A stretch of 64,000 nt of DNA from Oceanospirillum beijerinckii DSM 7166 (GTDB taxonomy: Bacteria; Pseudomonadota; Gammaproteobacteria; Pseudomonadales; Halomonadaceae), in contig NZ_AULT01000022.1 of assembly GCF_000422425.1 (NCBI RefSeq), positions 1 to 64,000 on the forward strand. The letters are read 5' to 3'. Below the pieces are notes generated by a model. It was not told the DNA's origin, did no database searches, and saw nothing but the letters and a program-made list of their open reading frames with translations. Positions 17,537-22,365 of the stretch are shown here, in pieces. A program made the translations under genes and the position numbers. Every line of letters begins with the position of its first letter. Position 1 is the first letter of the stretch.

Positions 17537-19837
17537 GTGATTAACCTGACCCAATCAGCACAGTATCTGCATGATCTGTCCAGCGAAAAAAAGCGCGATC
17601 CTAAATATAAAAAGGCAGATATTGCTGCAGTTCACGCCTTAACTCAGGCAGCGGTTCACGTTGAGCTGTTTACCATTCCTCTTTACATGACCTCGATGTA
17701 TTCCATTCAGGGCATGCATCAGATTAATGGAGGCAATGATTTCTACGAAGGTCGTCTATGGCCTGGTCCTGCAACTTCAGTATTACCTGAAGACAGAGAG
17801 CAAAACCATTACCTGTCTCCTGAGTTTGACCAACCTGCAGTACTGCCAGGTCAGGTTGATACAGATAACTTCTTTAACAAGAAAAGCTTCAACACCATCT
17901 TCAGTGTTTTTATTCAGGAAATGCTGCACCTGCAACTGGCTGCTAACATCTGCACGGCACTGAATAAAGATGCAGACGGTAAAAACAATTCTTTTGACCC
18001 AACCTTTACTGGCCCACCACTGCAAGCTGATACAATTGAGGATGGTTTCCAAAATGCCTGGACCTGCTACGGCCCAGACAAAACCCAGATTCCCCATATT
18101 GTTGATCTGACAGATCTGAAGCACGAAAAGATCTTTGGTGAAGATTACCTGGCGCTGGATGAGATCAAAGTAAAACTGGGTGCACTGGATATCAACGCCA
18201 TCTCCCTGTTTATGGCCATTGAAGCCGATCACCAAGTGGTCAAAGACCATATGAAGCCTGAAGCGCTGTCCAAATACTTCCCTAAAGCGCCTTTCTCCGA
18301 AGAGCTGTGGAACGCTGATAGCACAGAGCTTGATCTGCCAATGTTCGGTACGATCGCTCATATGTACAGCTGTTTGGCCACCTATCTGAACCTGGAATAC
18401 TGCGACGGCACCACTCTGTTCAGCGCTGTATTTAACAGTGAATCTGCTCAGCAGGATCTGTTTAACTTCTCCAACCGCAAAGGCGGTAAAGGTGAAGCAG
18501 GTCACCCTTGCGCAGAGTTCTCTGCCATGGGTGATTTGACCGTAACGGCTGCCGACCCGACCAATGCTAAGAAGCAGATCTTCAATATGATCAGCGGCAT
18601 TATCGACCAGGGTGAGGGTGGTCCTCTGGAAGTTGAACCAACGGATGTCTTTGATAAAGCGAAGATGCTCCTGGGGGCTGCGCCTGCCGCCACAGCCAGT
18701 GATCGAAATGCCGTGAATGTACGTTACCAGCCGGATCGCTTTGCACTGGAAGCAGATTATCCCTCTTATGACGACACAGGTAAGCGCTGCCCATACTCAG
18801 CAGATGCTCAGGCTCGCTCTATTGGTGGTGAACAGGATCACTTTGCCCGCTTTAAAGAAGTGGCAATGTATGTTGCACAAGGCAAGATCACGACCTGGGA
18901 GCAGTGGCATGCTAACCCTGAAAACAAATGGAGTGCGGCGCTGCTGGTAACTGATCCAAAGTATCTGGAAGAAGCTTCAAAATACAATATTGCTAAGCCT
19001 GAAGATGTGGCTACCGCTCTGAATAACCTGAAATACAAGAAGTTTGATGATCAGGATGCCACAGCAAGTGCAGAGTTTTCTGAAGATAACTTCAAACTGT
19101 TTAGCCATGTCGCAGCGGGCTCCATCGCTGGCATCACCTCAGTACTGGATACCTTCTGGAACTACGAAAACTTTATTAAAAACCCTATCGACTTCCCTTA
19201 CCCATCGATGTCCGGTTCTGGTGACCGTATCTCCATCTGCTGGGCAATCTTTGGTAAAGCCCCTGACTTAACCCTGGGTGCCTTCCCCCGTCAACGCGGA
19301 ATTATCCCCAGTGACGCTCAAGCACCGGTTAATCATGCCTGCCAAGGCTTGGGATTCTTACCTAACGGCAACCAAGACACAGAACATCAAAATACGTGTG
19401 CCACCAAGGGTGTTTTCCATACCTGTAAAGGTTCTAACCAGTGTGCCGGTGAAGGCGGCTGTGGCTTTGTACATGACGCTACTATCGGCGGCGGTGGCTG
19501 TGGCGGTTCCAGCAGTGGCCCTGGCACAGGCCTGTTCAGCGCACCTGCCGGTAACAAGTGTAGCGCACTCGGCGGTTGTGCCGTACCTATGTCTGACTCT
19601 CAGTTGCTACCTGAAGATGGTGAGATGCAATTATTCCAGCTCAACAATCACGGGGATGAAGGTTTCCCTCCTATCAAAGAGCCTATGAAATATAAAAAAG
19701 GTGACGGTGTTTACGATACCGCTTGGCGTGCTTACCAGAGTGTATTGCAAGGAAGAATCCTGGAGAAAGACGACAAGGATCTACCTGAAGCGCCGAAACC
19801 CAGTGATCTGCGTCTGGCCTTCCCGCCATCTACCTAA
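17537..19837 (+). CDS. Large ferritin-like (VioB-type) protein with Cys-rich C-terminal tail
   Basis: A 766-aa protein, start GTG at 17537 after TAAGGA. The first ~300 residues fit the iminophenyl-pyruvate dimer synthase/ferritin-like family: helices with HALTQAAVHVELFTIPLYM, then FIQEMLHLQLAANIC and FMAIEADHQVVKDHM, giving the Glu and Glu-x-x-His pattern of a diiron site. The middle (about 420-590) is a second domain I do not recognise. Residues 602-681 hold eight Cys (602, 621, 630, 636, 642, 655, 675, 681) in Gly/Ser-rich sequence with repeats such as CKGSNQC and CAGEGGC. No signal peptide is seen. It is the first gene of a set with DUF692 and DUF2063 proteins, which suggests the tail is a modification substrate (inference). 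A conventional metal-binding role is the alternative. Confidence 0.85.
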   Translation: MINLTQSAQYLHDLSSEKKRDPKYKKADIAAVHALTQAAVHVELFTIPLYMTSMYSIQGMHQINGGNDFYEGRLWPGPATSVLPEDREQNHYLSPEFDQPAVLPGQVDTDNFFNKKSFNTIFSVFIQEMLHLQLAANICTALNKDADGKNNSFDPTFTGPPLQADTIEDGFQNAWTCYGPDKTQIPHIVDLTDLKHEKIFGEDYLALDEIKVKLGALDINAISLFMAIEADHQVVKDHMKPEALSKYFPKAPFSEELWNADSTELDLPMFGTIAHMYSCLATYLNLEYCDGTTLFSAVFNSESAQQDLFNFSNRKGGKGEAGHPCAEFSAMGDLTVTAADPTNAKKQIFNMISGIIDQGEGGPLEVEPTDVFDKAKMLLGAAPAATASDRNAVNVRYQPDRFALEADYPSYDDTGKRCPYSADAQARSIGGEQDHFARFKEVAMYVAQGKITTWEQWHANPENKWSAALLVTDPKYLEEASKYNIAKPEDVATALNNLKYKKFDDQDATASAEFSEDNFKLFSHVAAGSIAGITSVLDTFWNYENFIKNPIDFPYPSMSGSGDRISICWAIFGKAPDLTLGAFPRQRGIIPSDAQAPVNHACQGLGFLPNGNQDTEHQNTCATKGVFHTCKGSNQCAGEGGCGFVHDATIGGGGCGGSSSGPGTGLFSAPAGNKCSALGGCAVPMSDSQLLPEDGEMQLFQLNNHGDEGFPPIKEPMKYKKGDGVYDTAWRAYQSVLQGRILEKDDKDLPEAPKPSDLRLAFPPST

Positions 19838-19983
19838 TACAGGCTTGATGTTTAGCTGTGCAGCACCCTTTAGCTCTGTATAGCTGACATAAAGGCTTAG
19901 AAGGTGATGACCCACAGGCACTGATCCGGTCAGTGCCTGTTCTGGTTCAGCACAGGTTGATACTTAACCCCACAGGATCTGTT

Positions 19984-21177
19984 ATGGCCACGCATACAAA
20001 TAACAGCGCTCCTAACCACAGCGCCCCGAATAGCAGCAACTCTAACAACAACTCTAACAACAACTCTAACAACAACAACTCTAACAACAGCAGTTCTAAC
20101 AAAAGCAGCTCTAACAAGAACGCCACTGATACTGCTTCAGCCTCTCACCTGGCTGATCAACTACCTAAACTAGGCTTTGGTGTGGGCTTACGCAGCTGCC
20201 ACTTTGAATGGCTGCTGAAAAATGATCTTAATCCTGCAGCGCTTAATCCTGTTGAACGCCCGGTGGATTGGTTTGAGATCATCAGCGAAAACTTTATGGA
20301 TAACCATGGTTTTGCCCACTATATGCTGGATCGGGTACGGGAGCGTTATCCTATCGTGATGCATGGCGTATCACTGTCCATTGGCTCCAGTGATCCACTG
20401 AACTGGAATTATCTGACCAAGCTCAACGCTCTGATTCAAGGTATTCAACCGGCCTGGGTATCGGATCATATCTGTTGGACCGGTATATCAGGGGTCAATA
20501 CCCATGACCTGCTGCCACTGCCCTACACAGAAGAATCCCTGCGTCATGTGATACAACGGGTGAACGAAGTGCAGGACTTTCTGCAACGCCCGCTGGTACT
20601 GGAAAACCCCAGCAGCTACCTGCAATTTCAGCAATCTGAATTGACCGAACCCGAGTTTATTAATGCCCTGTGCGCAGAAACCGGTTGCGGCCTGCTGCTG
20701 GATGTGAACAACGTCTTTGTCTCCAGCTTTAATCACGGTTTTGATGCCGAAGAGTATATCCGCGCCCTGCCCCACAAACAGATTGTGCAGATGCATCTGG
20801 CAGGTCCGACCCACTGCGGCAGTCATATTATCGACACCCATGATACAGAAGTACCGAGACAAGTGTGGCAGCTATATCAACTGGCCCAGCAACTGACTCC
20901 AGAGTGCTCCACCCTGCTGGAATGGGATGCCAATATCCCGGAATTCCCGCAACTGGTTAGCGAACTCAATAAAGCCCGTCAGGCTCTTACCGGAGAACTG
21001 CCCGGTAAAGAGCTGCACTATCAACCGGCACAGCAGAACAGTGGTCCCGTGGTATCGACGCCCGCTCACCATAATCTACAGGCCCACAATCTAAACGAAC
21101 ACCACAATCTAAACGAACACCGCAATCTAGACGAGCACTACAATCTTGACGAGTACCGCTATGCAGAAGCTGAATGA
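19984..21177 (+). CDS. DUF692 multinuclear non-heme iron oxidase (MbnB/TglH-like)
   Basis: A TIM-barrel enzyme of the family that modifies cysteines in ribosomal peptides (MbnB makes oxazolone/thioamide groups in methanobactin; TglH works in 3-thiaglutamate synthesis). Family landmarks occur in order: [79 protein letters not shown] and IDTHDTEV, covering the His/Asp/Glu/Asn iron ligands. I choose ATG 19984 after AGGAT. Two oddities: an Asn/Ser-rich N-terminal stretch of about 45 residues before the barrel, and a C-terminal tail with four repeats of the type NLNEH. The gene overlaps the next by 17 bp. Confidence 0.93.
20026..20125 (+). repeat. Short tandem repeats coding an Asn/Ser-rich linker
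   Basis: Units related to AACAACTCTAAC (12 bp) follow one another, coding Ser-Asn-Asn-Asn type repeats near the N-terminus of the DUF692 protein. A unit length divisible by three keeps the frame, so copy number could change the linker length by slippage. Confidence 0.8.
21085..21156 (+). repeat. Four 18-bp tandem repeats at the end of the DUF692 gene
   Basis: Units at 21085, 21103, 21121 and 21139: the first two are identical (CACAATCTAAACGAACAC), and the next two have drifted. They code a His/Asn/Glu-rich tail ([24 protein letters not shown]). The array ends 5 bases before the start codon of the DUF2063 gene. Confidence 0.88.
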
Positions 21178-22015
21178 ACTCCAACACTGGTTTGGCCGTG
21201 CAGTGATCCGTCGCGAACTGGATTACGACACCCTACTGGAAACCATCGTCGATAACGAGCAACTCAGTGCTGAACGCAGGCTGGGGGTTTACGCTGAGGG
21301 TTATCAGCTGCGCTTGCTGGAGTGTATGCGTGCGGAATACGCTTGTCTGGATGCCCTACTGAGCCGGGAGCTGTTTGACCGCTTTGCGCTGAATTACCTG
21401 AGTGCCCGCCCATCAACCTCTTATACACTGTTTGATCTGGGTGGTGAATTTGCTCTGTTTCTAGCCAATACCCGTCCGCCCATGCCGGAAGGAAGTGAAC
21501 AGCAAACGGCCATGAAGATGCCGGAACAACTGGCACAACTGGAACGTTACCGGGTAATGAGCATTCGCGGTAAAGGCTCCGAACACAGCGAGATACCAAC
21601 ACTGGACGCCACCATACTGCTGTTCCAACCTAACTTTCTGTTCAAGCGCACAGATACCAGCTTTGTGATGGCAACCGACTTTGATTTTTCCCCAGCGATT
21701 GAAGCGGTCGACAATGATCAACAACCGGATTTCCCCGAGCAAAAAAGCCAACATCTGCTGATCTACCGCCAAGGCTATCGCGTCAAGCTGATGACCCTGG
21801 AACCCTGGCAAGCCCTATTCCTACAGAGCTGTGATGGTCATTATTCCTGGCAGGCACAACAGCATCTGGTTTCCGAACAGCTGCAGCTATCGGGCGGCGA
21901 TCTGTTATCTCAGCTAATAACCTGGTTACCGCAAATGGTTTCGATGGGCGTACTGGAATTGGTTGAGCAGGAAGGCACGATAGGCAGTCAAAAAGCAGTA
22001 TTCAGTATGATTTAA
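21161..22015 (+). CDS. DUF2063 protein, putative peptide-binding partner of the DUF692 enzyme (MbnC/HvfC-like)
   Basis: A 284-aa protein whose N-terminal domain fits DUF2063 ([58 protein letters not shown]). DUF2063 proteins form a complex with the DUF692 oxidase and help recruit the peptide substrate in methanobactin and related systems. The C-terminal part ([15 protein letters not shown] ... [16 protein letters not shown]) matches the second domain of the HvfC type. The ATG at 21161 lies inside the end of the DUF692 gene (17-bp overlap), implying translational coupling; an in-frame TTG at 21146 is less likely. Confidence 0.88.
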
Positions 22016-22188
22016 CCGAAAGTGGCTGCGGAAGTGGAAAAATAATAGAGAGTATCAGTCATACACCGCGAACAAGAGCCTTCAATACATCCATTTCGCG
22101 GCTTAACACTGGTACTCTGCCTCGGACCTGCCCATAATATCGCTTCTGAATATTAAGCTTAGAAAAACAGCAGCATAAGGGTTATAAA

Positions 22189-22365
22189 ATGGGTGGCGTA
22201 TCGCTGGGGCAACTGATCATCCTGATTATTGTAATCACAATTTTCATCTTACCCAAGCTGATGGAATCCTTCTCTGACCGCTCCCCCGTCAACAAAAAAC
22301 AAGCACGAATTGTGCTGATATCAGTCGTCGTGGTTTACTTTCTCTTCTATGTATTTGGGCTTTAG
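22189..22365 (+). CDS. Small membrane protein, 58 aa
   Basis: ATG at 22189 preceded by AAGGG. The product has two hydrophobic segments, LGQLIILIIVITIFIL near the N-terminus and IVLISVVVVYFLFYVF at the end, joined by a polar loop with several Lys/Ser/Asp. It lies 173 bp after the DUF2063 gene on the same strand and may belong to that operon. The first residues (MGGVSLGQL) recall TatA-like small proteins, but the second segment does not fit TatA. Function unknown. Confidence 0.6.
   Translation: MGGVSLGQLIILIIVITIFILPKLMESFSDRSPVNKKQARIVLISVVVVYFLFYVFGL

Follow-up and report, generated by a model that had tools for sequence, protein, structure and literature searches.

Bufferins are the closest described relatives of the system reported here; in them, DUF692 (PF05114) enzymes, hereafter MNIOs, generate thiooxazole-type groups (PMC12452194; also PMC13097082 and PMC12538549; here and below, papers are cited for their passages on the point at issue). 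The present report concerns a three-gene cassette of Oceanospirillum beijerinckii DSM 7166, located in a stretch of 64,000 nucleotides (nt; positions 1 to 64,000 of NZ_AULT01000022.1) that is referred to as the window and is carried by contig C16 of the 5.3-Mb genome. Adjoining one another on the same strand, the three genes encode a ferritin-like protein with a Cys-rich region (FER), an MNIO and a DUF2063 protein. In the best explanation available from the sequences, to which we give a probability of about 0.8, FER would be a cytoplasmic bufferin-ferritin fusion and the adjacent MNIO and DUF2063 proteins its dedicated maturase.

Comparison with known systems

Within the bufferins it is Buf2 (Buf_6/12Cys; bufABC) that the cassette resembles, sharing the C-x-G-x-N-x-C spacing, the order substrate-MNIO-DUF2063 and an MNIO of the BufB type. 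FER differs from Buf2 bufferins in the lack of a detected signal peptide, in the position of its Cys region, which follows a ferritin-like fold of more than 500 amino acids (aa), in keeping only part of the Buf2 cysteines and in adding a near-invariant motif past the Cys core. Fusions that join a bufferin domain to a metal or redox domain, as in FER, have been described in a few instances, namely MerC with Buf2 and Buf1 with Cytochrom_C and FGE-sulfatase (Antoine et al. 2025, PMC12452194). The fusions of MerC with Buf2 are membrane proteins with the bufferin part outside (PMC12452194), whereas the FER fusion is a recurrent cassette of several phyla. Methanobactin (MbnA/MbnB/MbnC) likewise involves an MNIO and a partner protein acting on Cys; however, its substrate is a small peptide and its partner belongs to another family (PMC12452194), while the window MNIO is distant from MbnB (67.4 bits with that model, against a cut-off of 325) and is partnered by DUF2063. 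A large protein with a Cys-rich C-proximal segment as the suspected MNIO target is also found among the TIGR04222 proteins encoded beside MNIOs, which differ from FER in being membrane proteins and in having a PME-type 2 partner or none; the same paper suspects that MNIOs modify proteins (PMC12452194).

FER also resembles the PF12902 proteins (3hl1 / CC_0557), whose complete fold it contains (Z 28.0), and differs from them in its Cys module and MNIO, which 25 of 28 others lack. A member of this family also forms part of VioB. The main text of PMC12452194 contains no words starting with ferritin or VioB, the consulted text of PMC13097082 does not mention ferritin, and open-access full text searched for DUF692, MNIO, DUF2063 or PF12902 together with ferritin-like, and for bufferin fusions, yielded no description of the cassette. 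FER may well be included, unnamed, in the set of more than 1,000 signal-peptide-less proteins preceding MNIOs in PMC12452194. The preliminary description of this DNA had suggested a possibly new type of ribosomally synthesized and post-translationally modified peptide (RiPP) system and had held that known systems use small precursors. The first suggestion goes too far, since the FER tail appears to be a bufferin derivative and the system is therefore not of a wholly new type; the second is contradicted by the long precursors and bufferin fusions already described (PMC12452194).

Architecture of the cassette

FER is encoded at 17537..19837 on the forward strand, as are the other parts of the cassette, and comprises 766 aa. 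PF12902 (Ferritin-like) matches aa 37-365 with an E-value of 1.5e-18 (67.9 bits; cut-off 22.3). An AlphaFold2 model built from 42 sequences reached a predicted template modelling score of 0.86, and its aa 24-579 (17606..19273) superimpose on 3hl1_A over 283 of 289 residues at a root-mean-square deviation of 2.8 (Foldseek E 1e-5); among the solved structures compared with the model, 3hl1 was the sole confident match. The bufferin-type Cys-rich region (aa 600-689; 19334..19603; HACQG..C..FHTCKGSNQCAGEGGCGF..C..SAPAGNKCxxxGGCAVP) lies between confidently modelled parts and has a per-residue confidence (pLDDT) mostly below 50, and the C-terminal subdomain (aa 693-766; 19613..19837), ending in a conserved PPST, shows 10-residue means of 58-82. 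Because the whole of 3hl1 is matched at aa 24-579 and the pLDDT of the Cys region is mostly below 50, this region is flexible in the model, with a complete ferritin-like fold on its N-terminal side and a short piece on its C-terminal side. The 766-aa ferritin-like protein with a Cys-rich tail of the preliminary description thus stands as to the protein, its domain and the Cys-rich stretch; this stretch is not the extreme C-terminus, since approximately 75 residues with conserved positions lie beyond it.

Conservation was assessed in an alignment of 85 FER sequences (the window, loci L009-L012 and the 80 loci described below). FER of the window has 15 cysteines, nine of which fall in aa 561-700. 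C602, C630, C642, C675 and C681 are present in 85 of 85 sequences, so that the tail cysteines, whose conservation the preliminary description had left to be checked, are indeed conserved; C636 (84/85), C655 (81/85) and C621 (80/85) follow closely. The highest mean conservation of eight regions (0.84, versus 0.45-0.56 for the ferritin fold) belongs to aa 668-692 (SAPxDNxCxxxGGCAVPISASQLxP), past the bufferin core. Within the fold, E43, E128, H131, E229, E360 and H435 are found in all 85 sequences and form a candidate dimetal site with the ligand pattern E, ExxH, E, E, H; the ferritin-like domain is probably dimetal. S765 and T766 are each retained in 82 of 85, and the C-terminal subdomain is possibly a recognition element.

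The MNIO frame (19933..21177; PF05114, E 2.2e-104) begins mechanically at a GTG, the ATG at 19984 being the likelier start. Its product, a putative BufB-like maturase, exceeds the NCBIfam BufB equivalog cut-off (350.5 versus 310 bits) and carries the prevailing residue at all 22 positions that are near-invariant in a set of 142 MNIOs (positions at which at least 97% carry the same H, D, E, N, K, R, Y or W). The DUF2063 frame (21146..22015; PF09836, E 9.5e-17; PME-type 1 partner) overlaps that of the MNIO by 32 nt, or by 17 nt if translation starts at the likely ATG at 21161. These domain matches and the overlap confirm the DUF692 gene followed by an overlapping DUF2063 gene noticed earlier. 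The DUF2063 protein also has a sub-threshold match of the RiPP recognition element type (NGO1945_C, 20.1 versus 27 bits). The N-terminus of the MNIO (19984-20140) is Asn/Ser-rich and its C-terminus (21060-21160) has His-Asn-Leu-x-Glu repeats.

Phylogenetic distribution

The first FER homologues were found in two further gammaproteobacterial genomes and two Pseudoalteromonas plasmid records. The trio FER-MNIO-DUF2063 was read directly in L009, L011 and L012 and detected by profiles in L010; L009 and L010, as well as L014 and L015, are near-duplicates. When 84,980 species genomes were scanned with an early FER alignment, 157 relatives were obtained, and the 80 that most resembled the query, in which the tail was included, were kept. 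In most of these loci the three genes were called by profiles made from 4-5 sequences, Pfam being applied to few loci. Judged by their record titles, with three less familiar names checked, the 80 kept loci come from Pseudomonadota (51), Bacteroidota (22), Actinomycetota (3), Acidobacteriota (3) and Ignavibacteria (1); as NCBI taxonomy treats the last as a separate phylum, this gives five phyla. An MNIO gene lies directly next to FER in 78 of the 80, and in the remaining two, L061 and L068, the sequence is cut off by the contig edge; a DUF2063 gene follows the MNIO in 77, L027 likewise being stopped by the contig end. This recurrence of the trio across phyla is far beyond chance. Co-occurrence elsewhere, on which the preliminary description had turned, is accordingly found in 78 of 80 loci, that is, in all whose contig runs on.

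The distribution of the cassette is patchy; Marinobacterium jannaschii is one of its environmental carriers. No FER match was obtained in five genomes of the same genus or in 52 genomes of other relatives, and at the class level three of 369 genomes had one, including that of the window. This count excludes a further match (G399, E 1.2e-4) that is spurious, there being no ferritin-like open reading frame (ORF) among those listed there. A search of viral contigs revealed no FER relative.

Homology of the tail to Buf2 bufferins

The pattern CxGxNxCx5C is present in 83 of 85 FER sequences. It is absent from the 3,984 other ORFs that these sources contain, and three of 17,000 shuffled tails show it. 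The link from the tail to Buf2 was made through an intermediate profile, consisting of the separate Cys modules of L212 and L214 (see below), the tail of L219 and the tail of FER2, a divergent 742-aa PF12902 protein (L112) that has a Cys tail, an MNIO and a DUF2063 partner of its own. In hhalign comparisons this split-module profile matched the FER tail with a probability of 98.6 (E 7.6e-16) and Buf2 with a probability of 97.1 (E 6.9e-11), five Buf2 Cys columns being in register. Because pairwise hhalign E-values are optimistic on Cys-rich profiles, a control of 60 column permutations per comparison plus the reversed profile was used, and the real scores lay above all of these: 30 for tail-Buf2, 59 for module-Buf2 and 99 for tail-module, against permutation maxima of 16, 24 and 19, respectively. 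The 23 Buf2 precursors were selected by visual inspection among the 30 MNIO loci of one class that scored highest, and the presence of the motif in 23 of 23 reflects this selection and is no evidence. On these profile comparisons, the FER tail is homologous to Buf2 bufferins through the intermediate module. Since Buf2 precursors are known MNIO substrates, this homology points to the FER tail as an MNIO substrate.

Free-standing tails were sought in Pseudomonadota by searching 398 genomes with a tail profile (A2), which gave three matches, each within a PF12902 protein; a search of plasmids with the split module gave no match.

Split loci

In two genomes, Saccharothrix sp. NRRL B-16314 and S. 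carnea (L212 and L214), the Cys module is a separate gene. Among 149 relatives of one Saccharothrix genome that were searched, six genomes have a strong module match and a seventh a weak one, with one extra weak match inside one of the six. All six strong loci, two from Saccharothrix and four from relatives, have the order module, MNIO, DUF2063, stand-alone PF12902, and the genomes that contain L020 and L035, two of the six, hold the fused form too. In these organisms a single gene cluster encodes the two halves as distinct proteins, which argues that their link in FER is functional and not an accident of fusion. The arrangement also suggests how, in the course of evolution, a bufferin-like module that stood alone may have become a fused tail. 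A second weak match (G833, L243) was rejected, neither an MNIO nor a module being recognised there. In L219 (Acanthopleuribacter) the PF12902 and Cys-rich parts lie in two ORFs, either split or broken.

MNIO phylogeny, control loci and search for a separate precursor

In a FastTree phylogeny of 142 MNIOs, the 82 FER-linked enzymes form one clade (support 0.958), and a tree of 134 MNIOs groups the same 82 (support 0.939). Together with the MNIOs of FER2, seven split loci and L242 they constitute a clade of 91 (support 0.936). Branches outside the ferritin-linked clade vary between trees and were not used, and the labels Buf1, Buf2 and EGKCG given to them derive from pattern matches on upstream ORFs. 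Distances of FER and MNIO are correlated (r 0.80 over 3,321 pairs), as is expected from shared descent too. The MNIO and DUF2063 protein are, in the best explanation of these sequences, the dedicated maturase of FER.

As controls, 28 PF12902 matches outside FER and FER2 were examined: 11 loci from 398 genomes of the phylum and all 17 paralogues listed in 30 FER-carrying genomes. Three partial weak matches (L108-L110) were left out; they show no MNIO or motif within flanks of approximately 1.5 kb. For modules, each of the 2,006 ORFs in the 28 loci was searched with three profiles. No MNIO, DUF2063 or Cys-module ORF is present in the fetched stretch of 25 of the 28, some on short contigs (L205, 5.2 kb; L224, 6.4 kb; L115, 6.7 kb), and the three controls with an MNIO are L212, L214 and L219, each with a separate module. 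Neighbours of three MNIO-less loci that were inspected are a LodA/LodB-like pair, a GMC oxidoreductase and an amine-oxidase-type gene. The first of these (L114, 5711-10012) consists of a stand-alone PF12902 gene followed by genes for LodA, a quinoprotein oxidase, and a LodB-like flavoprotein; in fungi, PF12902 genes have been reported near lodA/lodB-like genes (PMC4417212). Two 660-aa PF12902 proteins (L213, 2903-4885; L229, 4591-6573), with no MNIO in the stretch, have C-termini with CxC...CDGSH, a CDGSH-type iron-sulfur motif.

The area within 3 kb of the cassette, outside the three genes, was searched in 84 loci for a small Cys-rich precursor (1,274 ORFs of 25-249 aa with at least three Cys), and no conserved one was found; the largest family covers seven loci (labelled Janthinobacterium). 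Two small ORFs fitting a loose bufferin pattern look like chance. The earlier remark that no small precursor is visible agrees with the lack of a conserved one within 3 kb in the 84 loci, and in the six split loci the separate Cys protein is a homologue of the tail in the position of a precursor. At the level of sequence, the linkage of the genes, their conservation, the relationship of the tail to Buf2 and the dedicated MNIO clade give good support to the proposal that FER would itself be modified.

Proposed mechanism and alternative explanations

FER would be translated without a signal peptide, as judged by a sequence heuristic, and its Cys region is predicted to remain flexible. The DUF2063 protein and the MNIO may recognise FER, perhaps via its conserved C-terminus, and the MNIO would oxidise tail cysteines, most likely to thiooxazole-type rings if the homology to bufferins extends to the chemistry. 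MmrA is reported to lose four hydrogens for each modified Cys (PMC12538549), and bufferins to absorb near 305 nm (PMC12452194). The modified tail might then bind copper or another soft metal, or act as a redox group, beside the ferritin-like site, this being the weakest step. If true, a folded, enzyme-like intracellular protein, and not an exported small peptide, would be a natural MNIO target, and the three-gene cassette and the split four-gene form offer defined material for testing MNIO action on a large protein.

Several observations weigh against this explanation. DUF2063 partners are reported to go with signal-peptide substrates (PMC12452194), and because no signal peptide was detected in FER the cassette appears to be an exception to this published pairing. 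None of the 85 FER sequences reached the threshold of the hydropathy heuristic, an insensitive test since just 15 of 23 Buf2 precursors pass it as controls; the 12 FER N-termini inspected are mostly polar. The direct profile match between the FER tail and the 23 Buf2 precursors is weak (probability 65, E 6e-5), so the link needs the intermediate; moreover, the first CxGxNxC of Buf2 is not kept in FER, and L011 and L012 fail the CxGxNxCx5C pattern. The 80 kept loci are those likest a tail-bearing query, and 77 weaker relatives lie outside the counts. Among further neighbours, no gene family occurs in more than eight of 84 loci and no metal-related gene, copper included, is conserved. Finally, L242 (4904-7204) has an MNIO of this clade and a DUF2063 gene with a Cys-poor, degenerate module upstream, and no PF12902 was found there.

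An alternative is that FER is an accessory oxidase that assists the MNIO in acting on a precursor from another locus, such as the separate Buf1-type precursor of this genome. Contig C35 carries a second MNIO, in an apparently ordinary Buf1-type operon (L001, 1047-3346) whose 88-aa precursor has an apparent signal peptide, and PF12902 relatives do adjoin redox enzymes such as LodA with a LodB-like flavoprotein. That operon, however, has its own MNIO, 39% identical to that of the cassette, and a DUF2063-like gene. The FER Cys region is itself a bufferin homologue and, in split loci, a separate protein in the precursor position; together with the lack of a conserved small precursor near the cassette, this makes an accessory role quite improbable. 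A tail that is a plain, unmodified structural metal-binding (zinc or iron-sulfur-like) or disulfide domain, with the MNIO acting elsewhere, would find a parallel in the many unmodified Cys-rich regions that bind metal and in the CDGSH-like motifs of MNIO-less L213 and L229, but it is at odds with the MNIO/DUF2063 linkage wherever the contig continues, with the homology of the tail to MNIO substrates and with the finding that 25 of 28 other PF12902 loci lack an MNIO as well as a module; we consider it very improbable.

With FER as the substrate of its MNIO, the modified tail could serve either of two competing purposes: it could buffer metal in the cytosol, next to an oxidase-like domain, or be a protein-derived cofactor. 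Buffering or detoxification, in which the tail would chelate cytosolic copper or another soft metal while the ferritin-like site oxidises Cu or removes peroxide, has in our judgement a little less than an even chance. The bufferins, relatives of the tail, protect against copper (PMC12452194), and DUF692/DUF2282 gene clusters of Caulobacter are Cu-induced (PMC8224329); on the other hand, no copper gene is conserved beside the cassette, and the apparent cytoplasmic location is unlike that of bufferins. A conservation of 0.84 at aa 668-692 exceeds the need of a loose chelator and, with the six invariant candidate dimetal ligands, favours a modified tail that would serve as a built-in electron relay or catalytic group and not as a metal buffer. 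LodA bears a self-derived cofactor. The gene for this quinoprotein adjoins that of a PF12902 relative (PMC4417212). The tail is, however, predicted to be disordered and is not placed on the ferritin-like site in the model, and we regard a cofactor role as possible and on the whole unlikely. In its specific form, which we put forward tentatively and think slightly less likely still, FER would be a cytoplasmic ferritin-like oxidase whose flexible tail the MNIO equips with a heterocyclic cofactor derived from the protein itself. RiPP-type chemistry would thus build part of an active site in cis or, where Saccharothrix and its relatives have the split form, in trans.

Other genes and observations

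A 58-aa membrane ORF is present downstream of the cassette at 22189-22365. It had been counted as part of the system in the preliminary description; because a tblastn search (E up to 1) over the collected loci matched only a copy of the window, it was left out. In seven loci a related gene lies close upstream of FER; in L036, the one of these that was scanned, it has a sub-threshold DyP_N match. More specifically, L036 (1-4934) encodes a cadherin-like protein with a type IX secretion signal domain, followed by the DyP_N-like gene and FER. Six loci of one cluster have a giant protein encoded just upstream of FER, which in L023 (3-4835), the one scanned, is of the RTX/cadherin/Ig type. Two further MNIO-linked precursors were noted: that of L144 (884-1357) has 157 aa with a duplicated Buf2 unit and 13 Cys, and that of L137 (2354-2635) has 93 aa made up of repeated CKGMNACKGKHACKGKNA units with an apparent lipoprotein-type signal.

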